DNA from: Candidatus Krumholzibacteriota bacterium
GTDB lineage: Bacteria; Krumholzibacteriota; Krumholzibacteriia; JAJRXK01
Direction: 5' to 3'
Assembly (NCBI GenBank): GCA_024276305.1
Contig: JAJRXK010000001.1
Coordinates: forward strand, 1-55,624
DNA length: 55,624 bases
Position numbers and translations under genes: made by a program. Every line of letters begins with the position of its first letter. The first letter of the stretch is position 1. The notes under the pieces were generated by a model. It worked only from the letters and a program-made list of their open reading frames with translations. It was not told the DNA's origin and made no database searches. Shown here piece after piece: positions 18,890 through 29,938 of this stretch.

Positions 18890-19438
18890 GTGGCCATCCT
18901 CCGGGAGTATCGAGGCCTTCGACCGCGAATCGGTGAGAGGGTCTACTTGGCCGACGACGTCGTGCTCATCGGCGACGTGGTGGTCGAGGACGGGGCTTCG
19001 ATCTGGTGGGGGAGTGTCCTGCGAGGGGACTGTGGCGCGATTCGAGTGGGTCGCGGATCGAATGTCCAGGAGGGTTCGTTGCTCCACGCCACGACGAATC
19101 TCAGTCGGACGGTGATCGGTCCGGAGGTCACGGTCGGCCATCATGCGATCATTCACGGCGCGACCGTCGAGGAGGGGGCGCTCATCGGAATGAAGAGTAC
19201 CATCCTCGACTTGGCGGTGGTGGGTTCGTTCAGCATCGTGGGGGCGGGAGCCCTGGTCGCAGAACGAGCGGAGATCGCTCCGGATTCCCTGGTGGTCGGA
19301 GTTCCGGCGCGGTGGAAGAAGAACCTCGCTGCGGCGAATCGCGAGCAGAGCCGCGCCCGCGCCCAGGAATACCGGGAGTTGGCTTCCCACTACTTGAAGT
19401 TGCGGGCGGAAGCTGAGCTCCGCGGAGGTTCGGAGTGA
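18890..19438 (+). CDS. Gamma-carbonic-anhydrase-like hexapeptide-repeat protein
   Basis: Left-handed beta-helix protein of the gamma-CA/YrdA family (182 residues). Hexapeptide repeats run from about residue 20 to 150, e.g. VLIGDVVVEDGASIWWGSVL, RGDCGAIRVG and VVGSFSIVGAGALVAE. Three histidines occupy the metal-ligand positions: GSLLHAT and the two in VGHHAIIHG. The C-terminal helix packs against the helix in this family. Activity as a carbonic anhydrase is often not detected for YrdA-type members, so the substrate is uncertain. GTG 18890 is chosen with GAGGAG upstream. The stop overlaps the next start as GTGA. Confidence 0.88.
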   Translation: MAILREYRGLRPRIGERVYLADDVVLIGDVVVEDGASIWWGSVLRGDCGAIRVGRGSNVQEGSLLHATTNLSRTVIGPEVTVGHHAIIHGATVEEGALIGMKSTILDLAVVGSFSIVGAGALVAERAEIAPDSLVVGVPARWKKNLAAANREQSRARAQEYRELASHYLKLRAEAELRGGSE

Positions 19439-21309
19439 GGCCTCGAGTCCTGCGGGTCTTGGTGCTCGGCGGCGCGATCCTCGCACTCGTGCTCTCCGGT
19501 TGTGCACACCCTCCCGGACGTCGGGGATTCGGCCGCCCGGCCCTGAGTGTGGAGCAGGTGCGCGCCGCCCAGGGGATGCTCCAGCAGTTGCGAGCCCGGG
19601 CCGCGGACGAAGAGTGGGCCGAGGCCGAGACTCTGGCCATGGAGATTCTGGAGACCTACCCCGCTTTCGAGAGTGAGGCCGAAGTGCTCTGGATCGGGTC
19701 GTCGGCGGCGCGACACCGCGGACGTCTTCGCACCGCCGAGGAGCTCTGGCAGACTCTGATCCGTGATCATCCCCAGAGTGGCTACTCGATGCAGGCTCAG
19801 TGGGAGCTGGCCGAGCTCTACCGTTCCCGGGGACAGTGGGAGTCCGAAGCTCGGACCCTCATTGCCCTCCATGACCGTCTCGATGCCAGCCAACCGCGAC
19901 GGGACCAGGTCCGGCAGCGCCTGCGCGCATTGCTGGACCAGGATCTGGATCTCTCCGCCCTCGACGTCCTGGCCCGGGAATTCGGACGGACTTTCATCGG
20001 GAGCAGTGCCCACTGGGCGGCGCTGCGTCGTGCCGAGACCGAGGAAGTGGGACCGCGGGAACTGGGGCGCCGGCTGGAGGTCTTCCTTCGCGACTATCCC
20101 CAGAGCCGACATCGAGACGAGGCGCGTGCGTGGTTGGCGCGGCTCGCGAGAGACGGTCAGTACGAGACGCCGGAGGACCTTCGCCTGGCCCGAGTGGATC
20201 GGATCGGAGTGCTCTGCCCCTTGAGTGGAGAGTATGCGACGCTGGGCCAAGCGCTCTACGACGGAGCTCTCTTGGCCCTCGAGGAACACAATCGAGCCAG
20301 CGGTGACTCTCTCTCGATGGTGGGGCTGGACACGCGGGGCGACGAAGTCGTCGCGGTGCAGGCGGCTCGAACGCTCATCGAAAAAGATCGAGTGATCGCC
20401 ATCGTGGGGGCGCTGACCTCGTCCACCACCACGGCCGTCGCGGTGCTCTGCCAAGAACGGGGAGTCCCTCTGGTCTCTCCCACCGCGACCAACGAGAACA
20501 TCAGTCAGTTGGGCGAGTTCGTCTTTCAGACCAATCTGACCCGGGACTTCGAAACCCGATTGGTGGCCCAGGCCGCGGTCCAAGCCCTGTTGCGGCGCCG
20601 GTTTGCCATCCTCTATCCCGACGACGAGGATGGGAGAGCGAAGGCCGATGTCTTTGCCGCCGAGATCGAAGCCCTGGGGGCGAGGGTCGTGGCCAGCGAG
20701 CCCCTGCATCGGGGACAGACCGATTTCCGCCAGGCCATTACGCGGGTGCGGGAGGCCGGACCCGAAGCTCTGTTTCTCCCCATCGCACCCAGCGAGATGC
20801 GGTTGCTCGGGCCGCAGCTCGTCTTCCACGACCTTCGGGTCCAGCTGCTCGGGCCGAGCACCTGGATCAACACCGGCCTTCTGCGGCAGGCCCAGGACAG
20901 CCTCGATCGCGCGGTCGTCCCCAGTGATCAGGCTCTGGTCTCGCAAGCGGAGAGCGAGCACTTCGCGCGGCAGTGGAGACGACGCTTCCCCGAGCGGGCG
21001 GCCAATCCCTTCGCGCAGAAGAGCTACTTTGCGATGCGGCGAGTGATCAACTCTCTCGATCCGACGGGGGAGGACACCCGCGAACGTCTGCGTTCGAAGA
21101 TTGCCGCCGCCTTCCTGGCGCCGGGACTGCAGGGCGGTAGCCCCTTCCTCAAGCTGCGGGTACTGGCCGAGGGGAAGGAGTTCCCCTTCCCGGTGGAGGA
21201 CTTTCCCGGGCTGCAGAACCCACCGCCAGCGGAGGCCGACAGCTTGGATCACCACGACCTGCCCCTCGAGTCGGATGGCGTCGATCCGGCCGGAGACGCT
21301 TCAGGGTGA
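19435..21309 (+). CDS. LpoA-like lipoprotein: TPR region plus type 1 periplasmic-binding domain
   Basis: 624-residue lipoprotein with an excellent lipobox LSGC (Cys23). Residues 35-235 are helical with TPR-like repeats (AEELWQTLIRDHPQSGYSMQAQ and ELGRRLEVFLRDYPQSRHRDEA). Residues 255-600 form a Peripla_BP_6 / branched-chain-amino-acid-receptor-type domain: VLCPLSGEYATLGQALYDGA, IVGALTSSTTTAVAVLCQERG, VSPTATNENISQLG and FRQAITRVREAGPEALFLP. This TPR + PBP arrangement resembles LpoA, an outer-membrane activator of penicillin-binding protein 1A; without ABC permease genes nearby a transport role is less likely. GTG 19435 overlaps the preceding stop. The gene ends in a 9-bp convergent overlap with the TonB-like gene. 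Confidence 0.82.
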   Translation: MRPRVLRVLVLGGAILALVLSGCAHPPGRRGFGRPALSVEQVRAAQGMLQQLRARAADEEWAEAETLAMEILETYPAFESEAEVLWIGSSAARHRGRLRTAEELWQTLIRDHPQSGYSMQAQWELAELYRSRGQWESEARTLIALHDRLDASQPRRDQVRQRLRALLDQDLDLSALDVLAREFGRTFIGSSAHWAALRRAETEEVGPRELGRRLEVFLRDYPQSRHRDEARAWLARLARDGQYETPEDLRLARVDRIGVLCPLSGEYATLGQALYDGALLALEEHNRASGDSLSMVGLDTRGDEVVAVQAARTLIEKDRVIAIVGALTSSTTTAVAVLCQERGVPLVSPTATNENISQLGEFVFQTNLTRDFETRLVAQAAVQALLRRRFAILYPDDEDGRAKADVFAAEIEALGARVVASEPLHRGQTDFRQAITRVREAGPEALFLPIAPSEMRLLGPQLVFHDLRVQLLGPSTWINTGLLRQAQDSLDRAVVPSDQALVSQAESEHFARQWRRRFPERAANPFAQKSYFAMRRVINSLDPTGEDTRERLRSKIAAAFLAPGLQGGSPFLKLRVLAEGKEFPFPVEDFPGLQNPPPAEADSLDHHDLPLESDGVDPAGDASG

Positions 21310-22047
21310 GCCGGAGGCCGGATGCTGGTCAGAGGCCGTAGGGGACGGGGGTCCAGTGGTGAACACGAAGTTGATCTGATCCCAGAAACCGCTTGGCATT
21401 CCGTCAATTAGAAGCGGTTTGTAGACCCATTTCCGCACCGCTTCCAGGACGGCCTCGGCGAAGAGGTTTCCCCCGTTGTTGCCCCGGAGATAGGCCTCTG
21501 CCACGTGGCCGCTCTCGTCCACGTACATCGCCACCGACACCACGATGCGCCGCTGACGGAGGGAGGCACTGGCCTGCAGGGGGTAGGTCGGGTTCACCGA
21601 CTGGAGGAGGACGAATTGCATCGACTGCTGGGCCGCACGGCTGCGTCGGACCTGGGCCTGGGGGTCGTCTTGGCGAGAGTGGGAGGTCCCATCACGGTTG
21701 ATTCGAGAATCCTGAGGGATCCCGCGACCCGTCTCCTGGTCGAGAGGGCGGGGGTCGGGGTTCTCGGCCAGAATCCTCTCCGTCAGCTGAGGGTCCACGC
21801 CCTGAGTCGTGGCGGCGAGCTGACGGAATTCCTCCTGGCTGACCTCGTCGATGGGGGTGTCCGGGATCACCTCGATGTTGTCCAGAATCTCGAGGGGACC
21901 CTCGATTCCGGTACGGCGATACCACTCGCCTTCGGGATCGCCCTGGGGCCCGAAGAGGACCACGAGGATCAGGCCGAGGACCACCGCCGCCACCGCCGCC
22001 ATCAGGCGCTGGGAATAGCCCCATCTCTCTTCGAGTTTGCGATCCAT
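21301..22047 (-). CDS. TonB-domain protein
   Basis: Only minus-strand gene in the window. The chosen start (codon at 22047) gives 248 residues: short cytoplasmic N-terminus, one membrane helix at about residues 14-34 (RLMAAVAAVVLGLILVVLFG), a periplasmic linker, and a C-terminal TonB-type domain (VSVAMYVDESGHVAEAYLRG and AEAVLEAVRKWVYKPLLIDG). TonB transduces proton-motive force to outer-membrane transporters, but isolated TonB-CTD proteins also have other envelope roles; no exbB/exbD are nearby. GGGAAG precedes the start. A longer form from GTG 22185 would run through the selA promoter and is less likely. It is divergent from selA and convergent with the LpoA-like gene. Confidence 0.85.
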   Translation of the reverse strand: MDRKLEERWGYSQRLMAAVAAVVLGLILVVLFGPQGDPEGEWYRRTGIEGPLEILDNIEVIPDTPIDEVSQEEFRQLAATTQGVDPQLTERILAENPDPRPLDQETGRGIPQDSRINRDGTSHSRQDDPQAQVRRSRAAQQSMQFVLLQSVNPTYPLQASASLRQRRIVVSVAMYVDESGHVAEAYLRGNNGGNLFAEAVLEAVRKWVYKPLLIDGMPSGFWDQINFVFTTGPPSPTASDQHPASGSP

Positions 22048-22123
22048 AACTTCCCGTGAGACAAGGGCTTCGGGGGAGGTCTCCAAGTACCTTCGGAGCA
22101 GCGGGGGCTGGGGCTCGCGCGGT

Positions 22124-22152
22124 TTGACCCGCAGCGGGGGCTGTGCTAGGTT
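22124..22152 (+). promoter_or_regulatory. Candidate promoter for the selA-smc-ftsY-rib-nusB unit
   Basis: TTGACC (22124-22129), 17-bp spacer, TAGGTT (22147-22152). Predicted start near 22159, about 57 nt before the selA ATG. Because all downstream genes to nusB overlap or nearly abut, this could drive about 11.7 kb. Confidence 0.45.
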
Positions 22153-22215
22153 GCGCCCACTGCGAGCGTGCTCCACGTTCCTCACCTATCGCGGTGGTGG
22201 CACCGCTCCAAATCC

Positions 22216-23685
22216 ATGACCGATCTTCTTCGCCTCCTTCCCTCGATGAGCCAAGTGCTCGCCCGACCCGGGGTGAGGGCCCTCCTCGACGAGTGGCAAC
22301 GGGACGTCGTCTGCGACGTGGCGAGAGGAGTTCTCGACGAGCTTCGTCGCAGTCTCCGCCAGGGTCAAAGCCTTCCCGACCTTCCCGCATCCGGAGTCGA
22401 TGAGGATTTCCTTCTGCATCTGACCGAGGACCGGCTCCGCTGCGGGATGGAGGAGCTCGGCCGTCCCCACCTCCGCCGGGTGGTCAATGCCACGGGAGTC
22501 CTGCTTCACACCAATCTTGGGCGGGCTCGCCTCTCGACGCAAGCGGCGGCCGAGGCCGCCCGGGCGGCGACCGAGGCGGTGTCTCTGGAGGTCGACCTCG
22601 AGACGGGGCGGCGGGGCCGGCGCGCGGCGCGAGTGGAGCGCCTGGTCGCCCTGCTCACCGGAGCTTCTCGAACGGTGGTGGTCAACAACGGGGCCGCCGC
22701 GCTGTGGTTGGCGGTGCGTGCCCTCGCAGCGCGAGGGGGGCGGGTCTTGGTCTCGAGAGGGGAGCAAGTGGCCATCGGGGGGAGCTTCCGGATGCCGGAG
22801 CTTCTGCGAACCACCGGTGCCCGGATGGTCGACGTGGGCACCACCAACCGAACGACGGTGGAGGACTATGCGGCCGAGCTGCGCGACGGTGACCTTCTGT
22901 TGAAGGTCCATCCCAGCAACTACCGCGTGGTGGGATTCCACGAGGAGGCGTCGGTCGAGGCCCTCGCCGACCTCAGCCGGGAGCGGGGCGCGCGGCTGAT
23001 CTATGATGCGGGAAGTGGAAGTCTGGTCGACTCCTCCCGCTACGGACTGCGGGGAGAGGCGACGGTGGCGGCCTGTCTCGACGCCGGCGCGGCCGTGGTC
23101 ACCTTCAGCGGGGACAAGCTTCTGGGCGGACCCCAGGCGGGGCTGGCGGTGGGAGAGGCCGACTCCGTCGAGCGCATGGCGAAGCACCCGCTGATGCGGG
23201 CACTGCGGGTCGACAAGATGGTCTTGGCCTCTCTCGAGGCCACCCTCCTCGCCTACGCGCGGCGGGGAGGGAGCCCCGCTCCGGCCCTTCCCTTCTACGA
23301 AGCTCTCGAAGTCGGGGAGCCGGAGCTGCGACGGCGTGCCCAGCGTCTGGCCGAGGACCTGGCTTCGACTCGTCCTCGGGGCTGGCGGATCGAGCCTCGG
23401 TCCAGCCGGGCTTCGGTGGGGGGAGGCTCCTTCGCCGATCAGAGCCTGGAGAGCTGGGAGGTCGGGTTGGTGGCGCCGACCGAGCGAGCGGCTCTCCGAC
23501 TGCATCAGGCCTTGCGTCGGGCCGAGCCCGCCGTGTACACCCGAATCGACGGTTGCGAGGTCGGGCTCGATCTGCGAGCGGTGCCGGAGACGGAAATCGA
23601 AATCCTCGGGCGCCAGGTCGGCGCGCAGTGGTCTCGGTCCCAAGAACCATCGGTGCGAATGCGGCAGGGGGAGGAAGGTCGATGA
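22216..23685 (+). CDS. selA: L-seryl-tRNA(Sec) selenium transferase
   Basis: PLP enzyme converting Ser-tRNA(Sec) to Sec-tRNA(Sec) with selenophosphate. The 489-residue protein fits the family. N-terminal tRNA-binding helices start with LLRLLPSMSQVLARPG; the core shows VVNATGVLLHTNLGRARLS, LEVDLETGRRGRR, VVVNNGAAALWLAV and NYRVVGF. The PLP lysine lies in SGDKLLGGPQAG (Lys301). ATG 22216 begins the family N-terminus although no good Shine-Dalgarno precedes it. No selB, selD or tRNA(Sec) is in this window, so selenocysteine use must be checked genome-wide. The end overlaps the next gene as ATGA. Confidence 0.93.
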   Translation: MTDLLRLLPSMSQVLARPGVRALLDEWQRDVVCDVARGVLDELRRSLRQGQSLPDLPASGVDEDFLLHLTEDRLRCGMEELGRPHLRRVVNATGVLLHTNLGRARLSTQAAAEAARAATEAVSLEVDLETGRRGRRAARVERLVALLTGASRTVVVNNGAAALWLAVRALAARGGRVLVSRGEQVAIGGSFRMPELLRTTGARMVDVGTTNRTTVEDYAAELRDGDLLLKVHPSNYRVVGFHEEASVEALADLSRERGARLIYDAGSGSLVDSSRYGLRGEATVAACLDAGAAVVTFSGDKLLGGPQAGLAVGEADSVERMAKHPLMRALRVDKMVLASLEATLLAYARRGGSPAPALPFYEALEVGEPELRRRAQRLAEDLASTRPRGWRIEPRSSRASVGGGSFADQSLESWEVGLVAPTERAALRLHQALRRAEPAVYTRIDGCEVGLDLRAVPETEIEILGRQVGAQWSRSQEPSVRMRQGEEGR

Positions 23686-25211
23686 ACGATCGTCACCAGG
23701 ATTCGAATTCGAAGGTCCCGTCCCGAGGTGGCGAGGGCGGCTATGACTGGCTCACCCAGCCCGCCTCGGAGGGTCAGGCATCCCCCGAGATCCTCTACGC
23801 GACCGCGCTGCGAGTGGGAGTGGACGCCTGGGAGGATTCCACCCTGGCCGAGGAGCTCGAATCCTTGGCCGAGACCCTCGCCTCCGGCTTGTCCGCAGAT
23901 GAGGATCCTGACGCGGGGCGAGTCTTTCAGGTCACCGACCTCGTCGAGGAACCCGAGGGAAGGGTCCGCCTCGCGCTCAGCCTGGCCCGGAATCTGCGCG
24001 AACGCGGGTTGGAGGTCATCCTCGTCGATGCCGATCTCCGATTCGTGGGGCTGGCTCGACACCTGGACGAATCCCTCGCCGACGCCGAAGGATTCGTCGA
24101 TGCCCTGGAATACGGTGCGTCCGCCGCTGCACTCCTGAAGGCGACTCCGAGGGAGGGAGTTCGTGTTCTGCCGGTCGGATCCTATCGTCCCGATCACACG
24201 CATCTGCTCTCCGACGACGCCCTCCGGCGGCTGGTCCGGCAACTGCGAGCCGCGGCGGATGTCGTCTTCCTCTTGGCCCCCGCCTGGACCGCGGATGGCC
24301 GATTCCACCCCCTGCTGGTTCACAGCGATCAGGTCATTCTGGGTTTCGACCTCGACCGGTCGTCGGCCGAGCCTCTGGCGGCGTTGCGGCGCTACCTCGA
24401 TGGACTGGGCATTCCTCTCGCTCCGCTGGTGGTGCGGGTGACGGACGATCCCGCGGACGGGGCGGTCGAGGTCGCGTTGGAGGAGAACCGCCAGACCACC
24501 GCCGCGGCCTCGGATCGGTCGTCGGGCCCTTCCCCGATCGAGTCTCCCTACGGGATCCGGCCGGAGTTGGGCGACGAGGCTTCGAGTCCGGGGGTGCGTC
24601 GACTCCTGATCGGCCTGGTCTTGGTGCTGGTGGCCTTCGTGGGATGGTGGGGGTGGACCGAAATGCGGGCTGCGCCATCCAAGACTCTTCCGCTCGAGGT
24701 GGCGGATCTGAGTCCAGCTCCCGAAGTGGCGACGGATCTCTCCGCCGCAGGTCTGGATTCCGAGACGGCGGCAAGCGCTGATTCGTCGGGGGCGGGGGTG
24801 TCGGCGGCAGCGGCTGCCATGGAGTCGGTTTCGATCGTCGAGCCCGAGGAGCAGGCGATCCCAGTGGCGGAGGAGCCCCCCCGGTCCGAGCTTGGTTCTT
24901 CTTCCGCATCGCCGTCGCCGGCGGAGGAGCTTTCTTCGGAAAGACTTCCGGCCGAGCTCTTCCTGGCCGTGCACGACGGTTGGGCCCTGCACCCCTGGAG
25001 CTTCGCCGACTCCAGTGATGCCGCGGCCGCGATGCTCTCCCTCGAGCGTCAGGGGATGCATCCCGTGGTGCATTCGGCGACGGTGAAGGGAAGGCTTTGG
25101 TATCGAGTTCTGGTCGGGAACTTCGAGTCCCGGGAGCAGGCCTGGGCCGCGCGCGAGTTGTTGTCCGAAAGGGTTCGGACGGATTGGGTGGGAGTGGTGA
25201 GAGTTCGGTAG
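23682..25211 (+). CDS. Degenerate ParA/BY-kinase-like domain + transmembrane helix + SPOR domain protein
   Basis: 509-residue three-part protein. Residues 75-270 resemble a MinD/ParA/BY-kinase Rossmann P-loop domain: RVFQVTDLVEEPEGRVRLAL followed by LARNLRERGLEVILVDADLR, where VILVDADLR matches the second Walker motif. At the P-loop position PEGRVR replaces the expected GEGKS/T, so the catalytic Lys and Ser/Thr are missing and ATP hydrolysis is unlikely. One membrane helix lies at 307-326, then a Ser/Ala/Glu-rich linker, and a SPOR-type domain at about 425-509 (DAAAAMLSLERQGMHPVV, LWYRVLVGNFESREQAWAA). Inferred topology is cytoplasmic ATPase-like domain and periplasmic peptidoglycan-binding SPOR. 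It lies directly before smc-ftsY, suggesting a link between septum and chromosome. Function is inferred. Confidence 0.75.
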   Translation: MNDRHQDSNSKVPSRGGEGGYDWLTQPASEGQASPEILYATALRVGVDAWEDSTLAEELESLAETLASGLSADEDPDAGRVFQVTDLVEEPEGRVRLALSLARNLRERGLEVILVDADLRFVGLARHLDESLADAEGFVDALEYGASAAALLKATPREGVRVLPVGSYRPDHTHLLSDDALRRLVRQLRAAADVVFLLAPAWTADGRFHPLLVHSDQVILGFDLDRSSAEPLAALRRYLDGLGIPLAPLVVRVTDDPADGAVEVALEENRQTTAAASDRSSGPSPIESPYGIRPELGDEASSPGVRRLLIGLVLVLVAFVGWWGWTEMRAAPSKTLPLEVADLSPAPEVATDLSAAGLDSETAASADSSGAGVSAAAAAMESVSIVEPEEQAIPVAEEPPRSELGSSSASPSPAEELSSERLPAELFLAVHDGWALHPWSFADSSDAAAAMLSLERQGMHPVVHSATVKGRLWYRVLVGNFESREQAWAARELLSERVRTDWVGVVRVR

Positions 25212-25259: not shown

Positions 25260-28200
25260 TTGCGACTGAAGCGTGTGGAGATGATCGGGTTCAAGTCCTT
25301 CATGGACCGAACCGTGTTGGACTTTCGGGACGGCATCACCTGCGTGCTCGGACCCAACGGTTGTGGAAAGAGCAATGTGGTCGACGCGGTGCGTTGGGTG
25401 CTCGGTGAACAGAGCGCCAAGCAACTCCGCGGCGAGAAGATGGAAGACGTCATCTTCAAGGGGACCCGGCGGCGCAAGCCGATGTCCTCGGCCGAAGTGA
25501 GCCTGGTCTTCGACAACACCGCTCAGCGATTGAATCTGCCCTACGCCGAAGTGGCAGTGACTCGGCGGGTCTCCCGAGCGGGGACCAGCGACTACTTCCT
25601 GAACAAGACTCCCTGTCGGCTCAAGGACATTCGGGATCTCTTCTACGACACCGGGGTCGGCAACAATGCCTACTCCGTGATCGAGCAGGAGATCGTGGGG
25701 CAGGTGCTCGACCCATCGGAGGACAAGGTTCGGACGATTCTCGAAGAGGGTTCGGGGATCGTCCGCTACAAAGTGAAGCGCAAAGAAGCGCTGCGGAAAC
25801 TCGACCTCACCGAACGTGATTTGCTCCGGGTCGAGGACATCATCGAGGAAATCGGTCGCCAGGTCCGCAGCCTCGCCCGTCAAGTGGGCAAGGCGCGGCG
25901 CCATCAGCGTCTCTACGGCGAAGTGAAGGCCCTGGAATTCGTCCGCGCGCACATGAAGAGGCAGCAGCTCCAGGCCGAGCTCGACACTCTCCGCGACAAG
26001 GACCAAGAGCTGCGGGCCGAAGGCAGTGGCGACGACGCCGAGGCTTCTCGCATCGAGTCCCAAGTCTCCCAGCTCCGGCCCGAACTCGACGGTCTCGAAG
26101 ACCGGCGCCGCGAGAAGGCGCAGGCGCTCTCGGAGGTCGAGTCCCAACTCAATCGCATCGAAGGGGAACTCCTGGTTCTGCAGGAGAAGATCGCCTCGGG
26201 GCAGCGCCGTCGTGAGGAGATCTCGGCCGAGATGGAGCGTGGCGGGTCGCGGGCCACCCAACTCCGAGAGGAGCAGGAGCAGGCCGAGGTCGAGCACGCA
26301 GCGGTGGTGGAGCGCTTGCGCGAGCGAGAGGCGGGAGTGAAGGCCCGGGAGGCCGCAGCCCAGGAGGTTGGAGCGACCTTCGAGCAGGCCCGCCGAGAGC
26401 TCGCCCAAGCCCAGCAGATGTCCCTGGGATTCCTGCGTCAGGAGGCGGATCAAAAGCAGGACATCACTGCGGCCGAGACCAAATTGGAGGCATTGCGTCA
26501 GCAGGAAGATCGGCTGCGCCAGACGCAGGGAGAGTCGGAACAGCGACTGCAAACCCTGCGGGAGCAGTTGACGGACATCGAATCGCAAGTGGAAGCCAAA
26601 CACCGCGAGATCGACGAAAAGCAGCAGGCCTTGGTCACCGTCGAGTCGGAGGTTAAGACTTCGGACGAACAGTTGCAGCAGTGTTCCCAACTGCGCAATG
26701 CGGCGTCCGATGAGTTGGCGCGGGTGGAGAGCCGTCACGAAATGGCCCTGAAGCTGGCCGAGGACTATGAAGGCTATCGTGCCGGTGCGGCTACTCTGCT
26801 CAAGGACGAACAGTTGAAAGGCCGGGTCAAGGGAGCCATGGCCGAGCGGCTCAAGGTCGAGCCGGACTATGCGGCGGCCTTCGAGCTCCTCTTCGGCGAG
26901 GATGCGGATGCCCTCCTCGTCGACGCCGTCGGTGATGCTCGGGACCTCGCTCAGCGACTGGTCGACGAGGAACTCGGACTCGCCAGTTTCGTGGCCGACC
27001 TCGGACGCAGTTCCAATCAGCCTCTCGATGACAGTGGAGTTCCGGGACGTGCGGCGACGGATCTGGTGCAGGTCGATGCCGAGGCTCAGGGCGTCCTCTC
27101 GAGATGGCTCTCTCGGGTGAGAGTGGTCGAGACCAGCCGCGAGGCCGTCGATGGGGTTCTGGAATACGCGGGGCGGGGTTTCAGTTTCCTCTCCAGAGAT
27201 GGCCTCTACTTGCGACATGATGGATTGGTTCGGGGAGGATCGGGGGCTCGTCGTGCGCTCTCTCTCTTCGGCCGTCGAGACCAAGTCGAACAGCTGGCGG
27301 AAGAAGTGCAGAGGCGTCGTTCGCTCCTCGCCGAACGGGAGCGAGAGGAGCAGGCGCACCGCGAAGCCCTGCGGGTGGCCCGGGAACGGGTGACCGAGGT
27401 TCAACGCGAGTTGAGCGAATCACGTCAGGCCGCAGCCGCGCTCCAGCAACAGCTCGCATCGCGCCAGGGAATGGTGGAGCGAGAGCAGGAGGAAGGCCGG
27501 CGCAACGAGACCCAACTTCGTCAGGTCGAAGCGGAGATGCAGGAGCTCCTCGCCGAGGTCGAAAGCTTGCGGCTGAGCTTGGGCCGACATGGCGAGAGTC
27601 AGGAGGCATCCCAGAGGCGGGTCGAAGAGCTCACCAGCCGGGTGGCGGAACTCGAGGCCGAGCGAGATCGACAGGCGGAGGAGTTGGGGGAGGCCCGACT
27701 CGCGCTCACCCACGACCGAGGAGTCGATCGGGAGTTACGGGGAAGGCGCGATCGACTCGAGAACATGCGCAGCGAACTCGACGAGCGTCTGCGGAACCTC
27801 GATGCGGAGGGCGCCACGCTGGAGAAGAACGTGGCCCAGTGGCAGGAGGAAGTCCGGTCTCGTCGCGAAGAAGTCGATGGACTCTATCGGATGCGGTCGC
27901 AGCGGCAGGAGGATCTGCGCGAGGTCAACGAGATCATCGACGGCAAGCGCAACGAAGTGGAGCAGCTACGCGAGCAGCTGCGACTGGTGCACGAACGGCA
28001 GAAGCAGAAGGCCGATGCCTTGCACGAAGTGGAGACGCAGATCACCAAGGTCGAGCTCACGCTGGCCAACCTCGAGGACCGCATCCAGGAGAAGTTCGAG
28101 ACCACGGTGGAGGAGGGTTATCAGGCCATCGAAGAAGGCCAACTCCCGTCGGACCTCGTGCGTGAGGAGGACACTTATCAGCTCTCCCAGGTCGAGGAGA

Positions 28201-28982
28201 TGTTGAACGAACGGCAGCAGCGCTTGGACAAGATCGGGCCGGTGAACTTCGTGGCCCTCGACGAATACGAGGAGAAGAAGCAGCGCTTGGACTTCTTGGA
28301 ACAACAGCGGGACGATCTGCTCAAGAGCAAAGACGATCTCCTGCGCGCCATCGACACCATCAACCGGACCGCCCGGGAGATGTTTCAGACCACCTTCGAG
28401 CAAGTGCGCCAGAATTTCCGAGAGATTTTCACGACCCTCTTTTCGGGAGGCGAGGCGGATCTGATCCTCCACAAGACCGACGATCCCCTGCAGAGCGACA
28501 TCCAAGTGATGGCGCGTCCGAGTGGCAAACGGGTGGACAGTGTCTCCCTCCTCTCCGGTGGGGAGCGCGCCCTCACCGCCATCGCCCTGCTCTTCGCGGT
28601 CTACCTCATCAAGCCCAGTCCTTTCTGTCTCCTCGACGAGGTCGACGCGCCACTCGACGACATGAATGTGGGGCGCTTCGTCCGGCTGCTCGAGCGTTTC
28701 AGTGATCGTACTCAGTTCATCGTGATCACCCACAACAAGCTCACCATGGAAGCGGGCAATCACCTCTACGGGGTGACGATGGAAGAGAGTGGAGTGAGCC
28801 GCCTGGTTTCGGTGAGCTTCGACGAGTTGCGGGGCGAGGATCCCATCGAGGCCCTCGAGGGAATCGCGGCCCAGCGAGAGGCGGACCAGGCCAACCCCGA
28901 GCGTCGCCTCGACCCCGGACATGCGGTCGACAAAGCGCGGGAGATGGCGGCCGAAGCGGGTGCGCAGCCCGAGGAGGTCTGA
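25260..28982 (+). CDS. smc: Chromosome segregation protein SMC
   Basis: Bacterial condensin subunit, 1240 residues. N-terminal ATPase half: IGFKSFMD and Walker A GPNGCGKSN (residues 31-39). Long coiled coils occupy about 165-500 and 680-1010 (Glu/Gln/Arg-rich heptads). The hinge at about 505-665 includes GRVKGAMAERLKV, EDADALLVDAV and a GGSGARR segment. The C-terminal half contains the ABC signature LLSGGERALTAIAL and Walker B/D-loop PFCLLDEVDAPLDD. TTG 25260 is used with GGGAGGGG 7 nt upstream; no ATG near gives a better N-terminus. Genes scpA/scpB are not in the window. The adjacent ftsY repeats the smc-ftsY order known from Bacillus. Confidence 0.97.
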   Translation: MRLKRVEMIGFKSFMDRTVLDFRDGITCVLGPNGCGKSNVVDAVRWVLGEQSAKQLRGEKMEDVIFKGTRRRKPMSSAEVSLVFDNTAQRLNLPYAEVAVTRRVSRAGTSDYFLNKTPCRLKDIRDLFYDTGVGNNAYSVIEQEIVGQVLDPSEDKVRTILEEGSGIVRYKVKRKEALRKLDLTERDLLRVEDIIEEIGRQVRSLARQVGKARRHQRLYGEVKALEFVRAHMKRQQLQAELDTLRDKDQELRAEGSGDDAEASRIESQVSQLRPELDGLEDRRREKAQALSEVESQLNRIEGELLVLQEKIASGQRRREEISAEMERGGSRATQLREEQEQAEVEHAAVVERLREREAGVKAREAAAQEVGATFEQARRELAQAQQMSLGFLRQEADQKQDITAAETKLEALRQQEDRLRQTQGESEQRLQTLREQLTDIESQVEAKHREIDEKQQALVTVESEVKTSDEQLQQCSQLRNAASDELARVESRHEMALKLAEDYEGYRAGAATLLKDEQLKGRVKGAMAERLKVEPDYAAAFELLFGEDADALLVDAVGDARDLAQRLVDEELGLASFVADLGRSSNQPLDDSGVPGRAATDLVQVDAEAQGVLSRWLSRVRVVETSREAVDGVLEYAGRGFSFLSRDGLYLRHDGLVRGGSGARRALSLFGRRDQVEQLAEEVQRRRSLLAEREREEQAHREALRVARERVTEVQRELSESRQAAAALQQQLASRQGMVEREQEEGRRNETQLRQVEAEMQELLAEVESLRLSLGRHGESQEASQRRVEELTSRVAELEAERDRQAEELGEARLALTHDRGVDRELRGRRDRLENMRSELDERLRNLDAEGATLEKNVAQWQEEVRSRREEVDGLYRMRSQRQEDLREVNEIIDGKRNEVEQLREQLRLVHERQKQKADALHEVETQITKVELTLANLEDRIQEKFETTVEEGYQAIEEGQLPSDLVREEDTYQLSQVEEMLNERQQRLDKIGPVNFVALDEYEEKKQRLDFLEQQRDDLLKSKDDLLRAIDTINRTAREMFQTTFEQVRQNFREIFTTLFSGGEADLILHKTDDPLQSDIQVMARPSGKRVDSVSLLSGGERALTAIALLFAVYLIKPSPFCLLDEVDAPLDDMNVGRFVRLLERFSDRTQFIVITHNKLTMEAGNHLYGVTMEESGVSRLVSVSFDELRGEDPIEALEGIAAQREADQANPERRLDPGHAVDKAREMAAEAGAQPEEV

Positions 28983-28984
28983 GT

Positions 28985-29938
28985 TTGGTCTTCGGAGCCA
29001 TTCGCAAACTCAAGCGCGGTCTGGACAAGACTCGCAATCGTTTGGTGGGCCGCCTCGGGGCGGCCCTCAAGCGCGAAGTCTATCTCACCGAGGGGTTCTT
29101 GGAGGAAGTCGAAGAGATCCTCATCGCCGCGGACGTTGGAGTGGAGGCGGCGGTCGAACTCAGCGAGGGACTGGGCCGGCGCCTGCGTGAAGCGGGAGGG
29201 ACGGCGAAGCTCGAAGACGTGACTTCGGTGCTGAGGGAAGAGATCGCGAACATGCTCGGCGGTGCCGAAGGCGAATCCATCGAGTCGGGAGGTCCCCCTC
29301 ATGTGATTCTCGTGGTCGGGGTCAATGGTGTGGGCAAGACCACGTCGATCGCGAAGTTGGCGAAGTGGCACCAAGGGCAGGGACGACGGGTGCTCCTGGG
29401 AGCCGCGGACACCTTTCGCGCCGCTGCGGTGGAACAGTTGTCCCTGTGGGCGGATCGAATCGGAGTGGAGATCGTCAAGCAGGACATGGGCGCCGATCCA
29501 GCGGCGGTGGCCTTCGACACCGTGGCCCGGGCCAAGGCCCAGGGATTCGACGTGGTGATTCTCGATACCGCCGGACGTCTACAGAACAAAGAAGGGCTCA
29601 TGCGCGAGCTCGAGAAGATCGGTCGAGTGGTACGCAAGCAAATCGAGGATGGTCCTCACGAGACCCTTCTCTGCCTCGACGCCAATACCGGGCAGAATGG
29701 GATCAGTCAGGCCCAGGAATTCACCGCGACGGTTCCCCTCGATGCGATCTTCCTCACCAAGCTCGACGGCACCGCGAAGGGGGGCATCGTGGTGGCCATC
29801 GCGCAGGGTCTCGATCTCCCGGTGCGATATGTCGGGACGGGAGAGAGTGCCGATGACTTCGCGCTCTTCCACGCGCAGGACTTCGCCGGAGCGCTCTTCG
29901 AGGCGGACGAAGAGAGTGTGGGTCAGGAGAATTCGTGA
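28985..29938 (+). CDS. ftsY: Signal recognition particle receptor FtsY
   Basis: SRP-receptor GTPase that delivers ribosome-nascent chains to the Sec translocon. 317 residues: a short basic N-terminal helix (residues 1-30) instead of a long acidic A domain, the four-helix N domain to about 105, and the G domain with G1 GVNGVGKTTS (112-121), the DTFRAAAVEQL insertion region, DTAGRLQNK and the TKLDGTAKGG / GTGE closing motifs. TTG 28985 is preceded by GGAGG at 7 nt. The stop overlaps the ribD GTG start (GTGA), so translation is coupled into the riboflavin genes. Confidence 0.96.
   Translation: MVFGAIRKLKRGLDKTRNRLVGRLGAALKREVYLTEGFLEEVEEILIAADVGVEAAVELSEGLGRRLREAGGTAKLEDVTSVLREEIANMLGGAEGESIESGGPPHVILVVGVNGVGKTTSIAKLAKWHQGQGRRVLLGAADTFRAAAVEQLSLWADRIGVEIVKQDMGADPAAVAFDTVARAKAQGFDVVILDTAGRLQNKEGLMRELEKIGRVVRKQIEDGPHETLLCLDANTGQNGISQAQEFTATVPLDAIFLTKLDGTAKGGIVVAIAQGLDLPVRYVGTGESADDFALFHAQDFAGALFEADEESVGQENS

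Follow-up and report, generated by a model that had tools for sequence, protein, structure and literature searches.

A degenerate bacterial tyrosine kinase domain joined through one membrane helix to a SPOR domain and encoded between selA and smc in Candidatus Krumholzibacteriota

SPOR domains normally bind the septal cell wall, where they recognise denuded septal glycan, and in most of them a Gln at the position of FtsN Q251 contacts the glycan. In FtsN, DedD and DamX the domain is C-terminal and follows a cytoplasmic N-terminus, one transmembrane (TM) helix and a linker, and the cytoplasmic part of these proteins is, to our knowledge, not of the bacterial tyrosine (BY) kinase fold. CpsD of Streptococcus pneumoniae, a capsule protein that works with CpsC, is catalytically active as a kinase and is not known to carry a SPOR domain. 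This BY-kinase is septal, interacts with ParB and has an effect on the nucleoid (PMC4574921). BY pseudokinases are represented by EcpK of Myxococcus xanthus and HfsB of Caulobacter crescentus, both proposed to be scaffolds (PMC12004946). The protein described here shares with EcpK and HfsB the BY-kinase fold, the loss of catalytic motifs and a proposed scaffold role; however, those two are separate proteins that partner a polysaccharide co-polymerase, whereas here the domain continues into a TM helix and a SPOR domain and the gene adjoins smc.

The gene lies at positions 23682..25211 (+ strand) of the window, by which we mean the whole stretch of 55,624 nt of contig JAJRXK010000001.1 that was analysed, and it encodes 509 amino acids in the order BY-pseudokinase, TM helix, linker, SPOR domain, as assigned from the ORF, Pfam, NCBIfam and AlphaFold2. 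Its ATG overlaps the stop codon of selA (22168..23685, + strand; Pfam SelA 2e-108) by 4 nt in the sequence ATGA, and 48 nt separate its own stop codon from the TTG start codon, at 25260, of smc (25260..28982, + strand; Pfam SMC_N 1.6e-69, and SMC_hinge), which is followed directly by ftsY (28985..29938, + strand; Pfam SRP54 2e-71, and SRP54_N). A previous sequence-only reading of this DNA had given the same ORF, overlap and gap before smc-ftsY, and the sequence and Pfam matches bear out all of these. The promoter scan gave no sigma-70-type promoter in the locus region, and terminator matches there were close to the shuffle expectation. Upstream of selA, 19435-21309 and 21301-22185 encode an LppC/Peripla_BP_6-type protein with a TPR-like N-terminal part and a TonB-C protein; both genes are kept near the locus in many relatives.

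The N-terminal domain is a cytoplasmic, Rossmann-like, degenerate BY-kinase domain (residues 53-250, 23838..24431, + strand; AlphaFold2, Foldseek and PDB profile search). No model of Pfam or NCBIfam matched it above cut-off in our scans, the matches below cut-off being CbiA (Pfam, E=0.017) and, within residues 52-245, the weak BY-kinase matches TIGR03018 (E=2e-8) and TIGR01007 (E=1.5e-7). About residues 53-250 were modelled confidently by AlphaFold2 with 38 sequences (pLDDT mostly 85-95), and the first ranks of a Foldseek search of this model against the PDB were held by BceF (5e-11), Wzc (9e-11), VpsO (3e-10) and CapAB, over a range of E from 5e-11 to 1e-8, with ParA-type folds ranking below the BY-kinases. 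The family profile, searched against PDB sequences, likewise leads to BceF (3.3e-12). A relative from another phylum, modelled from a different alignment, gave the same layout and the same BY-kinase matches, and Foldseek and the PDB profile search thus agree on the BY-kinase Rossmann-like fold for two independent models. The cytoplasmic domain is a degenerate BY-kinase domain and not ParA/MinD-like; of the "ParA/BY-kinase-like" origin suggested earlier the BY-kinase half stands, and descent from ParA or MinD was rejected since BY-kinases match better by both profile and fold. Two members from the phylum of G285 keep a 'SPEELALELDLPLLG'-like stretch, e.g. SPEELALELDLPLLGALP, before the core, which we take to be typical of Wzc-type proteins, where such a stretch lies between the membrane part and the kinase; the NCBIfam matches of these two members to exopolysaccharide transport kinases agree with a Wzc-type link.

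With Wzc, CapAB, BceF and VpsO the family thus has the fold and the best sequence matches in common, but it is without their P-loop Lys, Walker B Asp, Tyr-rich tail and Wzz part. When 65 members were mapped on BceF, none had Lys at the Walker A Lys position (34 have Arg, 16 Ala and the rest other residues), none had Gly-Lys-Ser/Thr at the P-loop position, none showed the deviant Walker A KGGxGKT of ParA/MinD, and none had the Walker B Asp. In the window protein the P-loop position reads PEGRVR (residues 91-96, 23952..23969, + strand), with R94 at the Walker A Lys, and a Leu occupies the Walker B Asp position at about residue 198 (24273..24275, + strand). The Walker A'-like VILVDADLR (residues 112-120, 24015..24041, + strand) is retained; the first Asp of its DxD, here D116, is present in 65/65 members and the second in 43/65, and the Gly of the motif that follows is again found in every one of the 65. 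D116 belongs to a conserved patch together with G137, D140 and G145. EcpK, in contrast, has lost all three Walker motifs. A Tyr-rich C-terminal tail is absent, residues 250-302 containing one Tyr and the domain running into the TM helix. By fold (Foldseek) and by lost catalytic motifs (65-member mapping) the domain is a BY pseudokinase. The sequence-only reading had quoted both motifs correctly and was right that the P-loop is lost; to this must be added that the Walker B Asp has gone as well. The substitution of Arg for Lys (34/65) makes nucleotide binding unlikely, although weak binding may be possible.

A recently decayed or frameshifted copy was considered as an explanation and rejected, for the losses are identical in all members and other sites are invariant. 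A homologue with intact Walker A at the same locus was sought in the relatives and none was found, the few GKS matches falling outside the P-loop position. Ordinary BY-kinases, in which GEGKST precedes a VDADLRRP-like motif, were seen elsewhere in the genome for five of the relatives' loci examined, so that the smc-linked copy appears as the degenerate member of a family that still has active forms in related organisms. One member (L113:7594-9660, + strand) has a short in-frame repeat, AGNGVR, in several copies at the dead P-loop.

The rest of the protein has the layout of FtsN, DedD and DamX. A single TM helix (residues 303-329, 24588..24668, + strand) appears in the AlphaFold2 model between linkers of low confidence, and a hydrophobic segment is found in 63/65 members; Lys and Arg number 236 on its N-terminal side and 144 on the other across the family, which fits an N-in, C-out topology. 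The SPOR domain (residues 424-509, 24951..25208, + strand) is matched by Pfam SPOR at E=1.4e-9 (38.6 bits against a cut-off of 21), the fold being modelled over residues 424-508 at pLDDT about 95, and Pfam finds it in 32/35 diverse members. Structure prediction had been proposed earlier as a check on this protein; it was run, the model contains both a P-loop-like fold and a SPOR fold, and together with Pfam it upholds the described arrangement, in which a P-loop-like fold that lacks Walker A is followed by a single TM helix and a SPOR domain.

With the SPOR profile of the family, alignments were obtained to FtsN (1UTA, E=5e-5), DamX and a CwlC-type amidase, and in these H437, S440, W473 and R475 fall on FtsN Q251, S254, W283 and R285. 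The last three of these are among the five FtsN positions whose mutation cut localisation to the septum, with the side chain of S254 reported as dispensable (PMC6895207). The family thus shares the equivalents of S254, W283 and R285 with FtsN, DedD and DamX but differs from them at residue 437 (24990-24992), where most members have His for the usual SPOR Gln. From these sequence features the domain is likely to bind denuded septal glycan, and we infer septal targeting of the whole protein, a location that it would share with CpsD in addition to the BY-kinase fold. TIGR02223 (ftsN) scored 12.1 bits for the window protein and no more than 46.5 in any member scanned, short of the equivalog cut-off of 107.65.

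Homologues were found at E<=1e-6 in 79/80 Candidatus Krumholzibacteriota genomes, a few of the matches spanning the SPOR end only. In the loci fetched the gene follows selA, commonly with the 4-nt overlap, and is separated from the downstream smc, which has the same strand, by about 26-95 nt, and nearly all loci examined adjoin smc; the linkage to smc-ftsY noticed in the window is thus both confirmed and conserved in relatives. The rib genes are also among the conserved neighbours. The order selA, pseudokinase-SPOR gene, smc, ftsY occurs in five lineages, those outside the phylum being the phyla of G315 (represented by 7 genomes), G147 (by 20) and G285 (by 5), plus G350 (1/8 of its phylum), with adjacency to smc inspected in a subset of the genomes from other phyla. 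Among the matches listed from a scan of 387 genomes across the bacterial domain, we recognised no further full-length case. Those records that carry a name are metagenome-assembled genomes, and the bacteria are uncultured. Several apparent exceptions were rejected: in family f4 a divergent copy precedes smc in 3/4 genomes, and the contig of the fourth begins inside smc; an absence from part of the G147 phylum was likewise rejected for the genomes checked; and the presence of homologues throughout the phylum and in other lineages speaks against a single-genome oddity.

The pseudokinase-SPOR protein is the fastest-evolving of the four (mean identity 23%). Its pairwise identity tracks that of SMC with r=0.90, that of SelA with 0.85 and that of FtsY with 0.82. 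These values fit vertical descent but do not point to SMC in particular as the partner; the correlation with SMC is no higher than that between SMC and SelA. That the architecture and gene order recur in the phylum and in four other lineages indicates an old gene, vertically inherited and kept by selection.

Taken together, we think it probable, at roughly 60%, that the protein is a BY-pseudokinase scaffold fused to a septal anchor of the FtsN/DamX type, forming a bitopic protein of the inner membrane. The dead BY-kinase domain would face the cytoplasm and the SPOR domain the periplasm; binding of the latter to amidase-denuded glycan would concentrate the protein at the constricting septum, and the pseudokinase domain, for which we propose a scaffold role, could there dock either a partner from the cytoplasm or a second copy of itself, neither hydrolysing ATP nor phosphorylating tyrosine. 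That the cytoplasmic domain has kept nucleotide binding, its Arg standing in for the P-loop Lys, and acts as a ParA/MinD-like switch seems very improbable to us: the frequent Arg and the invariant Walker A' Asp described above would suit it, but no member has the P-loop Gly-Lys-Ser/Thr or the Walker B Asp, and ParA-type folds rank lower than BY-kinases. Somewhat less improbable, though still unlikely, is an export scaffold like EcpK or HfsB that would place a Wzz-type co-polymerase at the septum, with capsule made at division as by pneumococcal CpsCD. The BY pseudokinases known so far do serve polysaccharide co-polymerases (PMC12004946), CpsD links the synthesis of capsule with the septum, and in the same genome an AAA-TM-SPOR protein has a Wzz-like protein and a BY-kinase as neighbours; however, the neighbours tracked here are selA, smc, ftsY, rib, TonB-C and the LppC-like lipoprotein, with no wzz, wzy or glycosyltransferase among them.

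What the scaffold would hold separates the two remaining readings. The partner may, speculatively, be SMC, ScpAB, ParB or another chromosome factor, and coupling to chromosome segregation is plausible; the one pointer to it within the family is gene order, and its precedent is the pneumococcal CpsD-ParB pair. Against the chromosome link stands selA, which has no role in division and is an equally conserved neighbour. A dedicated coupling protein, whose SPOR domain would read the closing septum while the pseudokinase held SMC/ScpAB, ParB or another chromosome factor, appears doubtful. A more serious possibility, to which we give a little under an even chance, is a divisome regulator of the FtsN/DedD/DamX type, whose partner would be the septal peptidoglycan machinery and for which the adjacency to smc would be mere inherited order; it overlaps with the pseudokinase scaffold preferred above and differs from it in the partner. 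The bitopic layout with a long periplasmic linker and SPOR domain, as in FtsN, and the partial TIGR02223 match of some members would agree with such a regulator, as would the equal conservation of ftsY and the rib genes beside that of selA and the unexceptional correlation with SMC. It is less easily reconciled with a separate short TM-SPOR protein (234 aa) of FtsN/DedD type in the same genome, and it leaves unexplained why a whole pseudokinase domain has been retained in five lineages.

Each of the two kinds of protein is already known, and what is new is the combination of a BY pseudokinase with a bitopic SPOR protein in a conserved place. The literature search found no paper joining "SPOR domain" and "BY-kinase" (subscription journals are thinly covered in it), so that the earlier statement that no characterised protein has this combination holds, in the literature searched, for BY-kinase plus SPOR. 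It does not extend to the layout of an NTPase fold, TM helix and SPOR domain, since on contig 28 of the same genome an AAA_22-TM-SPOR protein (L146:1602-3137, - strand) likewise joins an NTPase-like domain through a TM helix to SPOR, and "NTPase fold plus SPOR" alone is thus not unique. That protein differs in its intact Walker A (GGIGLGKT) and in its position away from smc, in a cluster of polysaccharide genes where a Wzz-like co-polymerase and a BY-kinase-like ORF are also found; the Pfam scan gave no AAA_22 match in the pseudokinase-SPOR family.

Few proteins are in contact with both the septal wall and the chromosome, and those few are lineage-specific; a conserved family that adjoins smc in five lineages or more offers a concrete, testable candidate for connecting division with the chromosome. 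If the coupling were true, several uncultured phyla would link chromosome clearance to the processing of the septal wall. The family also suggests that BY pseudokinases, known to date as scaffolds for polysaccharide systems, found a further use in the cell envelope, close to division genes. It is widespread, and its N-domain scores below the cut-offs of the Pfam and NCBIfam models scanned.

Other SPOR proteins were seen in passing. SPOR and BY-kinase matches lie close together on one contig in two further genomes too (G001 and G003). The short FtsN/DedD-like TM-SPOR protein of the same genome is encoded on contig 71 (L145:6242-6943, + strand), and SPOR-matching ORFs of about 230-270 aa recur in many relatives. 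On contig 99 of the same genome a TPR and SPOR protein (L147:3921-5009, + strand) is encoded directly 5' of a mutS-like gene.
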